In this document: in pieces, positions 9,323 to 15,215 of the stretch
Layout: every line of letters begins with the position of its first letter
Position numbering within the stretch: position 1 is the stretch's first letter
Assembly (NCBI RefSeq): GCF_003010915.2
Contig: NZ_CP028426.1
Location: forward strand, 868,001-932,000
Source: Gulosibacter molinativorax
GTDB lineage: Bacteria; Actinomycetota; Actinomycetes; Actinomycetales; Microbacteriaceae
Direction of reading: 5' to 3'
DNA: 64,000 nucleotides
Notes under the pieces: generated by a model
Told to the model about the DNA's origin: nothing
The model's database searches: none
The model's input: the letters and a program-made list of their open reading frames with translations, nothing else
Translations under genes and position numbers: made by a program

Positions 9323-11422
9323 CTACGTGTCGATGAGCTGCGAGTCGATGTGGTCGGCGCCCTCGACGATGAACTCGCGGCGCGGCGCGACCTCACTGCC
9401 CATGAGCATCTCGAAGACCGACTCGGCCTCGGCCGCATCCGTCATCGTCATCCGGCGCAGGATGCGGTGCTCGGGGTTCATGGTCGTGTCCCACAGCTGG
9501 TCCTCGTCCATTTCGCCGAGACCCTTGTAACGCTGGATCGGCTCGACGTACTTCTTGCCCGACCGCTCGAGCTTTGACAGCAGCTGCTGCAGCTCGTTCT
9601 CGGAGTACGTGTAGATCGTGTCGTTGGGCTTCTTCCCGGGGTTCTGCACGACGACGCGGTGCAGCGGGGGCACGGCCGCGAACACGCGCCCATCCTCGAG
9701 CATTGGCCGCATGTACCGGAAGAACAGCGTCAGCAGCAGCGTGCGGATGTGCGCGCCGTCGACGTCCGCATCCGACATGATGATGACCTTGCCGTAGCGA
9801 ATCTGCGAGAGATCGAACGTGCGCCCCGAGCCCGCGCCGAGCACCTGGATGATGTTCGCGCATTCGGCGTTCTTCAGCATGTCGGCGAGCGACGCCTTCT
9901 GCACATTGAGAATCTTTCCTCGAATCGGGAAGAGCGCCTGGAATTCGGAGTTGCGGGCGGGCTTGGCCGTACCGAGCGCCGAGTCACCCTCGACGATAAA
10001 CAGCTCCGAGCGCTCGACCTCGTTCGACCGGCAGTCGACGAGCTTCGCCGGCAGCGAGGAGTTCTCGAGCGCCGTCTTTCGGCGCTGCGTCTCCTTGTGC
10101 GCACGAGCCGCGATGCGGCTCTTCATCTCGGTGACGACCTTCTCGAGGAGCATCGACGCCTCGGTCTTGTCCTGCCGCTTCGTCGAGTTGAAGCGCTCCT
10201 TCAGCCCGTCCGTGATCGTCTTCTGCACGATGTTGCGGGCCTGGGGCGTGCCGAGGACTTCCTTCGTCTGCCCCTCGAACTGCGGCTCGGGGATGCGCAC
10301 CGTCACGACCGCGGTCAGGCCCGCGAGCACGTCATCCTTCTCGATCTTGTCGTTGCCGACCTTGAGTCGGCGCGCGTTCTTCTGCACCTCGTCGCGAATC
10401 GTGCGGAGCATCCCCGCCTCGAAACCGGCGACGTGTGTGCCGCCCTTCGGCGTCGAGATGATGTTGACGTAGCTCTTCTGCACGGTGTCGTAGCCGATCC
10501 CCCAGCGCAGCGCGAGATCGACCTGCATCGTGCGCTCGACCTCGGTGGAAACCATGTGGCCGCTCTTGGGGTCGAGCACCGGCACCGTCTCGGAGTAGTT
10601 CCCCTCCCCCTCGATGCGCCACACGTCGGTGAGCGGACCATCCGGGGCGAGGTACTCGACGTACTCGGAGATGCCGCCGTCGTACTTGAAGGTCTCGGTG
10701 GTCGGCGCCTCGGGATCGCGCAGGTCTTGCAACTCGATCTCGAGCCCTGGCACCAGGAACGCGGTTTGGCGCGCCCGATCGCGCAGCTGCTCGACCTGGA
10801 AGTCGGCATCGCGCACGAAGATCTGCGGGTCGGCCCAGTAACGCACCCGCGTCCCGGTCACACCGCGCTTCGTCTTGCCGAGGATGTGCAGCTCGGCCTT
10901 GCCTGGCTCCTCGGTGAACGGGGAGTCGGGTGATGGCTGCGCTTCGCCGCCGACGACCGGATCCTTGAAGATTCCGGCGTGGCCCCGCTGGAAGCTCATC
11001 TTGTGCGTCTTGCCGCCACGGTCGACCTCGACGTCGAGTCGCGAAGAAAGCGCGTTCACGACGGATGCGCCGACGCCGTGAAGACCACCTGCCGCGCCGT
11101 AGTTGGCCGAGCCGAACTTACCGCCGGCGTGCAGCTTGGTGTAGACGACCTGCACGCCGCTCCAGCCGGTGCGGGGCTCGACGTCGGTGGGAATACCGCG
11201 GCCCTGGTCGCGAACCTCGACGGAGGAATCCGCGTGCAGGATCACGTCGATGCGGCTGCCGTACCCGGCGAGCGCCTCATCCACCGAGTTATCGATGATT
11301 TCCCACAGGCAGTGCATGATGCCCCGGGAATCGGTCGAGCCGATGTACATGCCGGGACGCTTGCGGACCGCCTCGAGCCCTTCAAGGACCTGCAGCTGTG
11401 TCGCCGAATACGATTCCGTCAA
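9323..11422 (-). CDS. parE: DNA topoisomerase IIA subunit B (topoisomerase IV ParE-like)
   Basis: 699 residues, the ATP-binding subunit of a type IIA topoisomerase. The GHKL ATPase region has EIIDNSVDEALAG, DQGRGIPTD and GGLHGVGASVVNALS; the TOPRIM region has FIVEGDSALGTAKPARN and IIMSDADVDGAHIRTL. TTG at 11422 is the start, supported by GAGGGGG upstream and a family-typical N-terminus (LQVLEGLEAVRKRPGMYIG). The chromosomal position near sigA, away from dnaA-gyrB, favours the ParE rather than the GyrB assignment, but the two are hard to separate by eye. Confidence 0.9.
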   Translation of the reverse strand: MTESYSATQLQVLEGLEAVRKRPGMYIGSTDSRGIMHCLWEIIDNSVDEALAGYGSRIDVILHADSSVEVRDQGRGIPTDVEPRTGWSGVQVVYTKLHAGGKFGSANYGAAGGLHGVGASVVNALSSRLDVEVDRGGKTHKMSFQRGHAGIFKDPVVGGEAQPSPDSPFTEEPGKAELHILGKTKRGVTGTRVRYWADPQIFVRDADFQVEQLRDRARQTAFLVPGLEIELQDLRDPEAPTTETFKYDGGISEYVEYLAPDGPLTDVWRIEGEGNYSETVPVLDPKSGHMVSTEVERTMQVDLALRWGIGYDTVQKSYVNIISTPKGGTHVAGFEAGMLRTIRDEVQKNARRLKVGNDKIEKDDVLAGLTAVVTVRIPEPQFEGQTKEVLGTPQARNIVQKTITDGLKERFNSTKRQDKTEASMLLEKVVTEMKSRIAARAHKETQRRKTALENSSLPAKLVDCRSNEVERSELFIVEGDSALGTAKPARNSEFQALFPIRGKILNVQKASLADMLKNAECANIIQVLGAGSGRTFDLSQIRYGKVIIMSDADVDGAHIRTLLLTLFFRYMRPMLEDGRVFAAVPPLHRVVVQNPGKKPNDTIYTYSENELQQLLSKLERSGKKYVEPIQRYKGLGEMDEDQLWDTTMNPEHRILRRMTMTDAAEAESVFEMLMGSEVAPRREFIVEGADHIDSQLIDT

Positions 11423-11577: not shown

Positions 11578-13281
11578 CTACGGCAGCGAGACCCGCGGGA
11601 GGGCCGGGTCGATTCGGCACGTGATCTCCTCGCCGATCGTGTCCATCGCATCCTGGAGCTCCTGCAGCACCGGGGCATTCGGGGTGTCGGCGCGTCCCGG
11701 ATTGCCGACCAGGACGGCGCGCTGGCCGAGCGCATCCCCATCGCCTGCCTCGACGAAAGTGCGGTTCGCCTCCACGCGCAGGATCGCGCGCCGCTCACCG
11801 CCGAGCATCAGTGAGGTGCGGCCCGCGGCCCACTCGAGCACTCCGTGGCTGCTGCCGATCCCGATCGCGGTTGCCGAGGCGCCGTCGAGGTTGAGGTTGG
11901 TGGTGACGACCGGCGCGGTCACCGTCATGACCGGCCGCAGCCCGAGCTCCTGCGGCCCGATCCCGTCGCCCGGGGCGACACCGTAGAGGAACGCGCCGAT
12001 GCGCACGAGGTCGAGCCGACCATCCTCGCGCGTGTATGACGCGGCCGATGCCTGGGCATGGCGCAGGAAGCCCTCCCCCACGAGCCCCGCAGCGTCGAGG
12101 CTTGCGATGACATCGGCAAACCGTGCGAGTTGCTCGCTATCCGACTCGTAGGTCGTCTCGGCGAGGTGCGTAAATGAGCCCATCACGCGGATGCGCCGCG
12201 CCTCGGTATCGGACGCGAACTGCGGGATGTGTTCGGCGAACGAGCTGTACAGGAAGCCGTCGCGGTGGAGTCCTGTGTCGATCGACAGATGAATCTGCGT
12301 TGGCTGACCGAGTTCGGCGGCCGCGTCGACGACGCGCCGGTACACGTCCAAGTCGGTGACGCCGAGCTCCACACCCGCGGCGATTGCGGCGCGGAAATCG
12401 GCGCCGCTACCCAGCATCCAGGCAAGGATGCGGGCATCCGGCGCGAGTTTCCGAACGCGGGCGGCCGTGGCGAGATCGGCGACGGCGAAGCCCTCGATAC
12501 CGCCGGCAAGCATCACGGGGATGACGATGTCGAGGTCGTGCCCGTAGGCATCGGCCTTGACCACTGCCCACAGCTGCGAGGGCGCGACGCGTTCGCGCAT
12601 CAGCGCGATGTTCGCGGCGAGCGCGTCGGTGTCGACCTCGACAATCGGGCCGGCCGAACCGGCGGCAGGCTCCCCGGCGGCAGATGCCCCAGCCTCAGGC
12701 AACCCAGCCTCGGGTGCCCGGGCCCCGAGCCTCTCGATATCGAGGATGCGCGTCTCGACGAGATTCGCGAGCCCGGCGATCAGGGCCTCGGCGCTCATGT
12801 CGGTCCAGCGGGTCCACTCAGTAAGCGAAGTCGCCGGGCCAATAACCTCGACGAGGCTCCCCGTCTCAGGTCGAATCGAACCGAGGTCAAGCACCGCCGC
12901 GTTCATTGCAACGCGCCCCACGATGGGAACGAGCACGCGCTCCTCGCCCACCGTCACAGCAACCGACGCGGCTCCCCCGGCGCAGCGAGGTAAACCGAAG
13001 CCGTAGCCGATGCCGATCAGTCCGAGGCTCGTCGGCTCAGCCGTGCGATACCGGTGCCCGTACGACACGCCCGCGCCCGCGGCAACGGCCTTGGTCGTCA
13101 GCAGCTCGGCGCTGAGCCTGACCCGCCCATCCCACCATTCCGTGGGTACAGCCGGGAGTTCCCCGGAGCGCCAGGCCGTCAACTGCACTGCTGCTTCGCG
13201 GGTGAGTTCGAGAAGTCGGAAGCCGCCAGAGTCTTGCACGCCCGTCGACGCGGTACTGAAATTGGCAAGGGATTCGCTCAT
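11578..13281 (-). CDS. Alanine racemase with an extra, displaced C-terminal domain at its N-terminus
   Basis: 567 residues from ATG 13281. Residues about 50-180 match the C-terminal beta domain of alanine racemases, including GIGYGFGLPR with the catalytic Tyr (residue 93) and GRVAMN. An Ala/Pro/Glu/Gly linker (about 188-210) leads to the PLP barrel, EVDTDALAANI, with the Schiff-base Lys242 in VVKADAYGH, IDTGLHRDGF, and Arg427 in RIGAFLYG. A second beta domain follows, but its Tyr position reads GIGSSHG and its GRVSMD motif is missing. The active site therefore must use the N-terminal copy. The normal family length is about 370. It should supply D-alanine for peptidoglycan. Confidence 0.85.
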   Translation of the reverse strand: MSESLANFSTASTGVQDSGGFRLLELTREAAVQLTAWRSGELPAVPTEWWDGRVRLSAELLTTKAVAAGAGVSYGHRYRTAEPTSLGLIGIGYGFGLPRCAGGAASVAVTVGEERVLVPIVGRVAMNAAVLDLGSIRPETGSLVEVIGPATSLTEWTRWTDMSAEALIAGLANLVETRILDIERLGARAPEAGLPEAGASAAGEPAAGSAGPIVEVDTDALAANIALMRERVAPSQLWAVVKADAYGHDLDIVIPVMLAGGIEGFAVADLATAARVRKLAPDARILAWMLGSGADFRAAIAAGVELGVTDLDVYRRVVDAAAELGQPTQIHLSIDTGLHRDGFLYSSFAEHIPQFASDTEARRIRVMGSFTHLAETTYESDSEQLARFADVIASLDAAGLVGEGFLRHAQASAASYTREDGRLDLVRIGAFLYGVAPGDGIGPQELGLRPVMTVTAPVVTTNLNLDGASATAIGIGSSHGVLEWAAGRTSLMLGGERRAILRVEANRTFVEAGDGDALGQRAVLVGNPGRADTPNAPVLQELQDAMDTIGEEITCRIDPALPRVSLP

Positions 13282-13404
13282 TTGGTGAGCGACTGTAGCA
13301 CGGATGCTTGCCCCGACGGCGCGGCCCACGGTGCGGCTTAAGAGGCCGCACACTAAACTGGCGCTTTAGCGTAATTGCCAATCACGATGGATGGAGCACA
13401 CCTA

Positions 13405-14424
13405 GTGTCAACTACGAACTGGATTGGAGCACGGCTCGAGTTCCTTACGCGCCGACTCCGCGGGTTCAAGCCGGACAACTTCATTGAGCGCGTTAACGCG
13501 GTCAGCGAGCAGCACAACAAGCCTAAGCCCGTGATTGCCTTCGACATGCTGTGGTCCGCCGCGTTCAAGGACACCGCGTTCCAGGACTACGTTGACTGGG
13601 ACTACGCGATGCTCACGAAGAACGAGCGCAAGACGTTCATGACGCATCCCCTGTCGAACCACCTCGCGGTTCAGTTCAACCAGGAAGGTCACCGCGAGAT
13701 CTTCCAAGACAAGATCGACTTCAACCGCAAGTTCGACAAGTACCTGCGCCGTGCCTGGGCCGATATCCGCGAGCTCGATGACGACCAGCTGCGCGCTTTC
13801 CTCGAGCCCTTCGACGCGATCATCGGGAAGGTGCCGTTCAGCAACTCGGGCCACGGCGTTTCGCGCTATGAAAAATCGGAGTGGCAGGACATCGCCGCCT
13901 TCCGCAAGCGGCTCGAAGAGGCCGGCGAGCTCCTCCTCGAAGAGCAGATTCAGCAGCACGTGGATCTCGCGGCAGTCTGCCCCGGTACGGCCAACACCAC
14001 CCGCGTCACGGCGTTCTTCGATGGCAAGGACGTGCACATCATTACGATGGCGCAGAAGTTCGGTCGCGGTCAGGTCAGCGACCAGCAGACCTTCGGTGGC
14101 TTCTACACGATGCTCGATCTCGACGGCCACGCGCTCAGCCGCGGCTACGACTCGCACGACAACGTGTACGAGACGCACCCCGAGTCCGGCGCGTCGATCG
14201 TCGATTTCCAGCTACCCGACGTGGACAAGCTCAAGGAAATGGTCGACGAGGTAGCCCGCGTCGTTCCCGAGGTCCCCTACGTTGGCTGGGACTACGTCAT
14301 GGGCCCGGATGGTCCGATCCTCGTCGAGGGGAACTGGGGCGTTGGCGTCTACGAGAACAAGCCCTCCGTTACGGGCGTGCGCCACGGCAACCGCGCACGA
14401 TTCCGCCGTTTCATGAACTTCTAG
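13405..14424 (+). CDS. ATP-grasp family protein (sugar-transfer-associated type)
   Basis: 339 residues from GTG 13405, chosen because GGAG lies ten bases upstream; an ATG at 13387 is an alternative. The fold shows an N-terminal helical part (LWSAAFKDTAFQDYVDWDYAML), a central ATP-grasp region (FDAIIGKVPFSNSGHGVSRY) and a C-terminal metal/ATP site, YVGWDYVMGPDGPILVEGNWG, the final Glu-Gly-Asn being typical. It resembles the ATP-grasp proteins found beside surface-sugar genes, which are thought to form amide or peptide bonds. No sugar transfer genes adjoin it here, so its substrate is unknown. Confidence 0.75.
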   Translation: MSTTNWIGARLEFLTRRLRGFKPDNFIERVNAVSEQHNKPKPVIAFDMLWSAAFKDTAFQDYVDWDYAMLTKNERKTFMTHPLSNHLAVQFNQEGHREIFQDKIDFNRKFDKYLRRAWADIRELDDDQLRAFLEPFDAIIGKVPFSNSGHGVSRYEKSEWQDIAAFRKRLEEAGELLLEEQIQQHVDLAAVCPGTANTTRVTAFFDGKDVHIITMAQKFGRGQVSDQQTFGGFYTMLDLDGHALSRGYDSHDNVYETHPESGASIVDFQLPDVDKLKEMVDEVARVVPEVPYVGWDYVMGPDGPILVEGNWGVGVYENKPSVTGVRHGNRARFRRFMNF

Positions 14425-14522: not shown

Positions 14523-15215
14523 CTACACCTGGCGCAGGATGCCCATCGGCGTCGACTGGTGCCCCTGGCCGAGCGGGTTGTCCTTGAGGACGCGCACCCA
14601 GTGGTCGTTCTGTCCCTCATCGAGCGTGGTGCCGAGGATATTGCCCCCGATGTCGTTGATGTCGACGATGAGCACATCCACCTTGTTGCCGAGGAGGATC
14701 TTGAGATCGCGGGCGACGAGCATCGGCTTGTCCGGCCCGAGCACGACCGACTTGTTGTACGGCGGGATCGTGCCATCGGTCGGACCGTCGATCGCACGGG
14801 CCTTCTCGCCCGCGATGCGGTAGAAGTCGCCCTTGCGACCCATGGGCTTCGTCACTGCTGCGGCTGCGGCGGCGAAGAGGATGCGCGGCGTACCGCATTC
14901 CTGCAGGGCCATCTCCATGGTCTCCGGCATACCGAGACCAATGCCGTGCGGCGTCTTCGTGACGTACTTCGCGAGGAAGTTCGCGAGCGGGCGCGGCTCG
15001 ATCTCTTCGAGCAGCATCGAGCGGCCCTGGGTGATCGCGACAATCTTCTCGGTGACGAACAGGACGTCGCCGTCTTGTACTACGGGCTCGGCGTACTGGC
15101 GGACGACCTTGCGCAGGTCGTCATCCGCCATCACAACGTGAGTCTTGATGGGGATGCGCTGGTACGTCTTCCCGTCCACGGTCGATTCGAGCGTCTTGCC
15201 GTCGTTCGGCTGCAT
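14523..15215 (-). CDS. CofE-like coenzyme F420 gamma-glutamyl ligase family protein
   Basis: 230 residues. HVVMADDDLRKVVRQYAEPVVQDGDVLFVTEKIVAITQGR resembles the N-terminal block of F420-0:gamma-glutamyl ligases, and the Asp-rich metal/GTP segment VDVLIVDINDIGGNILG is conserved in them. True CofE adds glutamates to F420-0 with GTP. This version, lying right after the sigA gene, belongs to a stand-alone actinobacterial lineage; no other F420 gene lies in the window, so the substrate may differ. The start ATG follows AGTAGGACT. It follows sigA by 47 bases and may be read through from it. Confidence 0.7.
   Translation of the reverse strand: MQPNDGKTLESTVDGKTYQRIPIKTHVVMADDDLRKVVRQYAEPVVQDGDVLFVTEKIVAITQGRSMLLEEIEPRPLANFLAKYVTKTPHGIGLGMPETMEMALQECGTPRILFAAAAAAVTKPMGRKGDFYRIAGEKARAIDGPTDGTIPPYNKSVVLGPDKPMLVARDLKILLGNKVDVLIVDINDIGGNILGTTLDEGQNDHWVRVLKDNPLGQGHQSTPMGILRQV

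Follow-up and report, generated by a model that had tools for sequence, protein, structure and literature searches.

Alanine racemases normally act as homodimers with two active sites, each made up of the lysine that binds pyridoxal phosphate (PLP) on one chain and the C-domain tyrosine of the other chain. Active sites shared between identical subunits are common, and duplication followed by complementary loss can in principle yield obligate heteromers; to our knowledge, cases in which every stage of such decay is preserved are rare. We have analysed a 64,000-nucleotide stretch of the Gulosibacter molinativorax genome (NZ_CP028426.1, positions 868,001 to 932,000; hereafter the window), which carries a gene for a rearranged and fused alanine racemase-like protein, together with the relatives of this gene in the family Microbacteriaceae. 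Geobacillus residue numbering is used throughout, by alignment to the canonical racemase copy in the window's own genome (L001); the numbering and the residue roles belong in part to the general knowledge of this enzyme and otherwise come from the papers cited.

The published accounts assign Lys39 of the alanine racemase site to one subunit and Tyr265 to the other, and describe Tyr354 as contacting the PLP phosphate and helping to restrict the substrate to alanine (PMC3485190, PMC4517790, PMC4089486). Compared with the canonical Alr/DadX enzymes (TIGR00492, PLP enzymes of fold type III), the window protein shares the PLP lysine, Arg136, His166 and Arg219 of the barrel and has a C domain with the catalytic tyrosine, Met312 and the GRVAM motif. 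It exceeded the TIGR00492 cut-off (188.7 vs 168 bits), in two stretches owing to the changed domain order. It departs from these enzymes in its C-barrel-C order, in a C domain adjoining its barrel that lacks the tyrosine and in the Glu found at position 354, and one site per two half-enzymes would be expected, in place of two per homodimer. The lysine and broad-specificity racemases Lyr and Bar resemble the window protein in the replacement of Tyr354, with an enlarged pocket (PMC3485190), but they are homodimers of standard layout, with Thr or Ala at position 354 rather than Asp or Glu. The window protein scored below the cut-offs of the broad-specificity/lysine racemase model PRK13340 (73.6 vs 434) and of the VanT serine racemase model NF033131 (138.2 vs 460).

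Domain order and active-site residues of the fused gene

The gene is one uninterrupted minus-strand open reading frame (ORF; 11578-13281), of 567 aa from the ATG at 13281 or 591 aa from an upstream GTG. We propose that it encodes a single-chain pseudo-dimer with one composite active site, which would have arisen from tandem racemase copies through complementary loss and fusion, and we give this reading a probability of about 0.82. A first-pass annotation of the window, made from the sequence alone, had described a C domain with the catalytic tyrosine placed in front of the barrel and a second, degenerate copy behind it. This order is real, as the Pfam domains follow each other in that order within the single ORF. 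The domain at the N terminus is a genuine C domain of alanine racemase (PF00842, Ala_racemase_C, best stretch at residues 54-175, 92.2 bits), and its match, far above the cut-off, rules out that it is unrelated to alanine racemase. The barrel was matched equally clearly (Ala_racemase_N, residues 216-437, 157.5 bits, far above the cut-off). The third domain gave a weak Pfam match (22.2 bits vs a cut-off of 25) and aligns with the degenerate C domains of the relatives.

Alignment to the canonical copy revealed that the first C domain keeps Tyr265 (Tyr74), the entryway Tyr284 (Tyr93) and Met312, with Asp313 replaced by Asn. The barrel keeps Lys39 (Lys242), Tyr43, Arg136, His166 and Arg219, with Ser in place of the carbamylated Lys129. 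In the last domain, Tyr265 and Met312 are gone, the SYG tyrosine and the GRVAMD-type motif are missing, and Tyr354 has become Glu. The catalytic residues are therefore shared out between two domain sets, the lysine in the barrel and the tyrosine in the N-terminal C domain. The annotation had anticipated this division, the loss of tyrosine and motif from the C-terminal copy and the role of Lys242 as the PLP lysine, which aligns with Lys39. It had also placed the catalytic tyrosine in the correct domain, but chose the wrong residue: Tyr93 is the entryway tyrosine and Tyr74 the catalytic one. Its suggestion that the C-terminal copy had merely been repurposed was not borne out, as the helix with position 354, which lies at the PLP of its own chain in known enzymes, is retained, though the Tyr there has changed to Glu.

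Two-gene relatives and a proposed path to fusion

A profile scan of genome contigs from at least 582 relatives provided the best 80 loci, which were named and grouped according to their domain order; some seeds of the profiles used for this were the genes under study. They comprised 62 pair or fused loci, 13 canonical single genes and five intact tandem pairs. Among the 62, two adjacent genes were present in 59, L032 and L033 were fused, and gene 1 of L097 was cut off by the contig end. In the two-gene loci, gene 1 has a decayed barrel and has kept the tyrosine, and gene 2 has kept the barrel and lost the tyrosine. These Microbacteriaceae pairs carry the domains and residues of the window gene in adjacent, mostly overlapping genes, mostly near gyrB; they differ from it in being unfused and in a remnant of the first barrel, which gene 1 usually retains and the window gene no longer has.

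We have compared residues over 65 pair or fused loci, namely the 62 named ones, the window and two further Gulosibacter pairs (G002 and G009), with the canonical and tandem loci set aside. Each locus contains exactly one barrel with Lys39 (65/65), and in 64 Tyr265 is present in one C domain and absent from the other (gene 1 of L097 being cut off). The tyrosine and the lysine served to pick the domains; what is informative is the presence of exactly one of each per complete locus, and the behaviour of the other residues. In the Tyr-bearing C domain, Met312 was found in 64/64 and Tyr354 in 0/64. The other C domain lacks Tyr265 in 65/65 and has an acidic residue at position 354 (Glu in 53, Asp in 11) in all 64 readable loci, one being cut off. 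Tyr43, Arg136, His166, Ser204 and Arg219 of the barrel are present in all 65 loci. A pattern search ahead of the tyrosine domain detected a DAYGHG-like motif of the lost barrel in 48 of 64 loci and none in the other 16, the window included. The lysine of this motif is replaced in 48/48 (by Arg in 33, by Ala in 9 and by other residues in the rest), and is never Lys. In gene-1 remnants such as those of L013 and L014, the DAYGHG-like loop is kept under constraint despite the loss of the lysine.

Ratios of nonsynonymous to synonymous substitution (dN/dS) were obtained by simple Nei-Gojobori counts on 19 close locus pairs. They ranged from 0.08 to 0.40 for the tyrosine domain and from 0.09 to 0.29 for the barrel, from 0.06 to 0.53 for the remnant region (17 alignable locus pairs) and from 0.12 to 0.42 for the degenerate C domain (17 values, two involving L100, 1.02 and 1.13, having been excluded for unlike domain limits). 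Both genes, barrel remnant included, look constrained.

Within Gulosibacter itself, the gyrB/ATP-grasp neighbourhood of G009 and G002 holds two genes where the window has one, in a surrounding gene order that differs from the window's. Gene 1 (227-228 aa) consists of a barrel remnant and a C domain with the tyrosine, gene 2 (about 360-372 aa) of a barrel and a C domain without it, and the start of gene 2 overlaps the stop of gene 1 by 4 bases. A possible start with such a 4-base overlap was present in 59 of the 66 two-gene loci (five tandem loci included), which suggests that translation of the two genes is coupled.

The same overlaps bear on the idea that errors of assembly or sequencing have falsely joined adjacent genes, as a single indel could join most of the two-gene relatives; in addition, the nearest relative (P0002, 71% identity) is recorded as a protein of its own, with 363 aa and from a contig of 1478 bases. 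However, the linker DNA of the window (12655-12735) contains no ATG or GTG, none of the ATGA or GTGA junctions that occur in two-gene relatives, and a single in-frame TTG, at 12702. Moreover, the architecture, which the annotation had proposed to look for in other actinobacteria, does occur in other records: at least 14 other proteins place the tyrosine domain before the barrel, and two named loci, L032 and L033, hold fused genes. An artefact is thus highly improbable. The annotation had linked the finding of two separate genes in relatives to a frameshift or an assembly join. Such genes were found, but the two-gene state is under selection and looks ancestral, not like an error. One of the fused proteins, P0042 (426 aa), is without most of the last domain; its second C domain is nearly gone save the last helix, with Glu at position 354, and the protein comes close to a minimal one-site enzyme.

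Across 15 fused proteins, the gap between the tyrosine domain and the barrel, measured by profile limits, spans -1 to 54 residues, so that reach within one chain is not guaranteed. The fused chains could instead form a domain-swapped homodimer, in which the N-terminal C domain with its tyrosine serves the barrel of the other chain and each dimer has two sites, and the canonical enzymes are indeed described as head-to-tail dimers (PMC4089486). Such a swap is not demanded, as the two-gene relatives require only a one-to-one heterodimer and fusion changes nothing there. We consider the swapped homodimer unlikely, though well worth keeping in mind: in the single-chain pseudo-dimer that we favour, Tyr74 would act within its own chain, and two chains could also swap.

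To reach this pseudo-dimer, two tandem racemase copies would first have come to be made together. The barrel would then have disappeared from copy 1 and the tyrosine from copy 2, so that a single site remained, formed by the copy-2 barrel and the copy-1 tyrosine; the fusion of the two genes would have been the last step. What the sequences themselves show is the order of the domains, the complementarity of their catalytic residues, the two-gene relatives, the tandems with both copies intact and the recurrence; the order of the events is the one that we infer. The annotation had spoken of domain duplication. A simple domain duplication was rejected because relatives retain a remnant of the whole first copy, barrel included (P0010, P0049, P0077 and P0114; L033, L050 and L051), and indicate that the whole gene was duplicated in tandem before complementary loss and, last, fusion.

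Intact tandem pairs with both copies complete were found among the named loci in three Clavibacter and two Curtobacterium; all five have Tyr354 in copy 1 and Asp or Glu in copy 2. The Curtobacterium tandem sits between genes that we take to resemble glmS and tsaE. In the barrel tree, the second genes, the window and the Clavibacter and Curtobacterium second copies form one group (support 98; 100/99 in a second tree), with intact and decayed forms in both of its main branches. A tree with a single loss, holding the 37 decayed rows together against 11 intact ones, was rejected by the approximately unbiased (AU) test (p-AU 0.011), a value to be taken with caution given the long branches and the naming of the groups after the first tree. 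Three sequences that are first copies or remnants (L127_g2, L132_c2 and L120_c2) were excluded from the AU label sets and affect the group table of the second tree; the true second copy of L132 is in no tree, and the motif filter left L032 out of the second barrel tree and of the fusion tree. Since the single-loss tree was rejected, complementary loss appears to have occurred at least twice. It probably occurred three times or more when a 620-aa type of opposite domain order, treated in the next section, is counted; this type forms a group of its own in the barrel tree (support 99; 100/99).

The fused proteins are scattered among the two-gene ones, with eight fused/split changes by parsimony, some of which may be reversals, while fusions on metagenome contigs may include indel errors. 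Judged from this scatter, pair fusion is recurrent. The gyrB-side racemase within Gulosibacter comes from two branches: the G009 and G002 copies (L013 and L014) group with Leifsonia-like forms, and the window gene, whose neighbour order differs from that of L013 and L014, with the Microbacterium/Cryobacterium branch. Replacement by transfer is a possible origin of this pattern.

Table 1. Features of the fused racemase gene, its neighbours in the window and the opposite-order gene of the same genome (G000). Domain limits come from custom profiles that had the window sequence itself among their seeds; neighbour counts over the 65 loci are limited to the fetched flanks.
Feature	Position	Strand	Basis or remark
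Fused racemase gene, C(Tyr)-barrel(Lys)-C(degenerate)	11578..13281	-	567 aa; ORF and Pfam
N-terminal Ala_racemase_C, residues 54-182, carries the catalytic tyrosine	12736..13122	-	PF00842 and custom profile
Tyr74 codon, Tyr265 equivalent (GVSYGH)	13060..13062	-	Alignment and DNA
Met126 codon, Met312 equivalent (GRVAMN motif)	12904..12906	-	Alignment and DNA
Linker, Ala/Gly/Pro/Glu-rich, 27 residues by profile limits	12655..12735	-	DNA and profile
Barrel, residues 210-455, with Lys39, Tyr43, Arg136, His166 and Arg219 equivalents	11917..12654	-	Pfam and alignment
Lys242 codon, PLP Lys39 equivalent	12556..12558	-	Alignment
Degenerate C domain, residues 456-567, without Tyr265 and Met312	11581..11916	-	Weak Pfam match and alignment
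Glu551 codon at the Tyr354 position (specificity residue of alanine racemases)	11629..11631	-	Alignment
ATP-grasp protein (PF14397)	13375..14424	+	Homologue near 40/65 pair or fused loci
F420-0:glutamyl-ligase-like protein (PF01996)	14523..15215	-	Homologue near 30/65 loci
gyrB-type topoisomerase subunit	9323..11422	-	Homologue near 59/65 loci
620-aa opposite-order Alr	G000:C1:3297812-3299674 (L002:1483-3345)		Housekeeping-locus gene; one-chain complementary pair

Opposite-order racemases and the probable activity of split sites

The window's own genome (G000) has six PF01168 matches and three alr-type genes: the window gene, the canonical 379-aa gene (L001) and the 620-aa gene. The canonical gene adjoins a gene that we take to resemble a flavin adenine dinucleotide-dependent D-amino-acid dehydrogenase, and the 620-aa gene is flanked by what are presumably relatives of glmS and tsaB. 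The latter gene runs from a barrel through a C domain without Tyr265 and a barrel remnant (Lys39 replaced by Ser) to a C domain with Tyr265. This is the reverse of the window order under the same rule, with one complete Lys/Tyr set placed on different halves. The opposite-order Alr thus resembles the window protein in being one chain with complementary losses, and differs from it in domain order, in having kept Tyr354 and in forming a separate clade in the barrel tree.

Each of the 11 Gulosibacter genomes carries this type, and length and coverage indicate it in Pseudoclavibacter as well (P0121 and relatives). In Gulosibacter, Tyr354 is kept in the degenerate C domain (11/11) and lost from the Tyr-bearing one (11/11). 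Such a pattern is expected if one of two dimer sites has been kept, because Tyr354 acts with the lysine of the same chain. As Tyr354 is kept, the opposite-order Alr is probably alanine-specific.

Eight of the 11 Gulosibacter genomes (G001, G003-G008 and G010; 91-100% complete) have no PF00842 match outside the opposite-order gene, and their other PF01168 matches remain below 71 bits. The D-Ala-D-Ala ligase (Ddl) was above the cut-off in 13/13 genomes tested. As the opposite-order gene is the sole PF00842 match in these eight genomes, with Ddl present, such split sites very probably work. By the same evidence, it is very probable that these eight Gulosibacter use the opposite-order protein as their alanine racemase, with a reservation concerning D-amino-acid transaminases. 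No D-amino-acid transaminase was above the TIGR01121 cut-off in any of the 11 Gulosibacter genomes; yet a weak TIGR01121 match is present in exactly the eight opposite-order-only genomes and not in G000, G002 or G009, which speaks against the assignment. These matches, to a class-IV aminotransferase-like protein (L150-L153), reach 43-63 bits (best per genome) against a cut-off of 277. We have scanned two of the eight, and their best match was the aminodeoxychorismate lyase model NF005887 (254 and 257 bits vs a cut-off of 278), with 77 and 63 bits for the D-amino-acid transaminase model PRK06680 (cut-off 320). A D-Ala supply through a D-amino-acid transaminase in the eight genomes was rejected, the matches being far below the cut-off and the two of the eight proteins that were scanned being lyases by best match. 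In G006, the opposite-order alr (L021, L148), the only one of that genome, lies in two frames, owing to a mutation or an error in the sequencing.

In G023 (927,303 bases; L142:3226-5146), the two-gene form is the only PF01168 protein and Ddl is present, the transaminase model having been searched in the Gulosibacter genomes only. This genome supports the activity of the pair form; its pair has Asn in place of Tyr43 and Asp at position 354.

These data also bear on whether the window protein is still a racemase, or whether its barrel and C domains are kept for a binding or regulatory role. The loss of Tyr265 and Met312 from the third domain and the Ser at the carbamylated-lysine position would fit the latter. 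A non-racemase is nevertheless very unlikely, given that four barrel residues (Tyr43, Arg136, His166 and Arg219) and, in the tyrosine domain, Met312 are invariant in 64-65 loci, that dN/dS is well below 1 and that the opposite-order form is the sole PF00842 gene in eight genomes with Ddl. Some points do weigh against an active single-chain pseudo-dimer. Among the 65 loci, the window alone has Ser at the carbamylated-lysine position 129, and its row has a long branch in the barrel trees. That Tyr74 would reach the PLP on Lys242 is predicted from homology, and the activity of the protein is likewise a prediction.

From match rows and loci, we classified 45 genomes sampled evenly across 44 Microbacteriaceae genera, some of the genomes being perhaps of the same species as named loci. 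A pair or fusion was present in at least 11 of the 45 (G000, G011, G016, G018, G023, G034, G036, G039, G042, G043 and G046), intact tandem copies in at least eight (G014, G017, G020, G032, G037, G040, G041 and G045) and the opposite-order fusion in at least three (G000, G005 and G054). Among the matches listed, the order in the other 24 genomes looks canonical. The residues followed the same patterns. In 11/11 pair or fused cases, the tyrosine domain has Tyr265 and lacks Tyr354, and the other C domain lacks Tyr265 and has Asp or Glu at 354. All eight tandems have Tyr265 in both copies, with Tyr354 in copy 1 and Asp or Glu in copy 2 (the barrels of G017 were only partly aligned). In the 12 of the 24 canonical-looking genomes that were checked, both tyrosines are present. 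In G054 (L143:2186-4552), a barrel, a C domain without the tyrosine, a C domain with it and TsaE are apparently joined in one 789-aa frame, of unsure place in the tree.

Possible substrates of the Asp/Glu354 branch and their meaning for the family

The Tyr354-to-Glu change probably altered the substrate. The residue at position 354 takes part in the specificity of alanine racemases (PMC4517790), and docking of the lysine racemase Lyr placed its Thr391 beside the side-chain nitrogen of D-Lys (PMC3485190). Each pair that could be read has an acidic residue at 354, as does copy 2 of the tandems (five named and eight unnamed), which suggests a basic substrate. We regard it as a possibility of somewhat less than even odds that the enzyme acts on ornithine, diaminobutyrate or lysine, basic amino acids whose D forms would serve the bridge of group-B peptidoglycan. 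We know of no racemase that has been assigned to the D-diamino acids of this bridge.

According to the published descriptions, the wall contains diaminobutyrate (DAB) or D-ornithine (D-Orn) in Gulosibacter (PMC6113628), D-Lys in Frigoribacterium, D-Orn in Homoserinimonas and DAB, given with the isomer unstated, in Cryobacterium (PMC7033078), and D-Orn in Paramicrobacterium and Microbacterium sufflavum (PMC10757982). Within a comparison that covers pair-bearing taxa only, the co-occurrence fits Gulosibacter, Frigoribacterium, Homoserinimonas and M. sufflavum, and M. enclense is contrary.

Several observations count against strict specificity for diamino acids. The wall of M. enclense is described as containing L-Lys (PMC10757982), yet this species has the pair (L081). 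In the lysine racemase, 53% of the activity on L-Lys was left when Tyr was restored at the position, and its authors weigh a neighbouring serine above the Tyr354 position for specificity (PMC3485190). The G023 pair, with its Asp354, may have to make D-Ala. The window protein could hence have the specificity of an ordinary alanine racemase, with the replacement of Tyr354 being neutral or merely widening the pocket. Besides the G023 pair, as the only PF01168 protein of a genome with Ddl, and the limited effect of the equivalent residue in the lysine racemase (PMC3485190), its TIGR00492 (alr) score of 188.7 vs 168 is in line with this. On the other hand, the window genome has a canonical alr and an opposite-order Alr besides; the latter retains Tyr354, and all readable pairs have Asp or Glu instead; and in other alanine racemases this position restricts the choice of substrate (PMC4517790). 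Ordinary specificity is, in our view, a serious contender that remains rather doubtful.

The neighbouring ATP-grasp and CofE-like proteins are candidate ligases for the bridge. They were assigned to Pfam families only, no NCBIfam curated model being passed and no close solved structure being found for either. Taken together, we tentatively propose that the Microbacteriaceae have repeatedly turned a two-site homodimer into a one-site enzyme built from complementary, half-dead paralogues, first an obligate heterodimer and then a fused pseudo-dimer, and that the Asp/Glu354 branch would make the D-Orn, D-DAB or D-Lys of the bridge, with the ATP-grasp and CofE-like proteins as candidate ligases. 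In titles and abstract openings of one open-access collection, we found no description of the split-site racemase stages or of a diamino-acid role for Asp/Glu354, and no paper on active-site complementation between paralogues.

One bacterial family displays intact tandems, partly decayed pairs, minimal pairs and fused chains of a textbook drug-target enzyme, with these stages seen in two separate lines or more, probably no fewer than three. If the Asp/Glu354 branch does make D-diamino acids, the biosynthesis of group-B peptidoglycan would become open to direct test.

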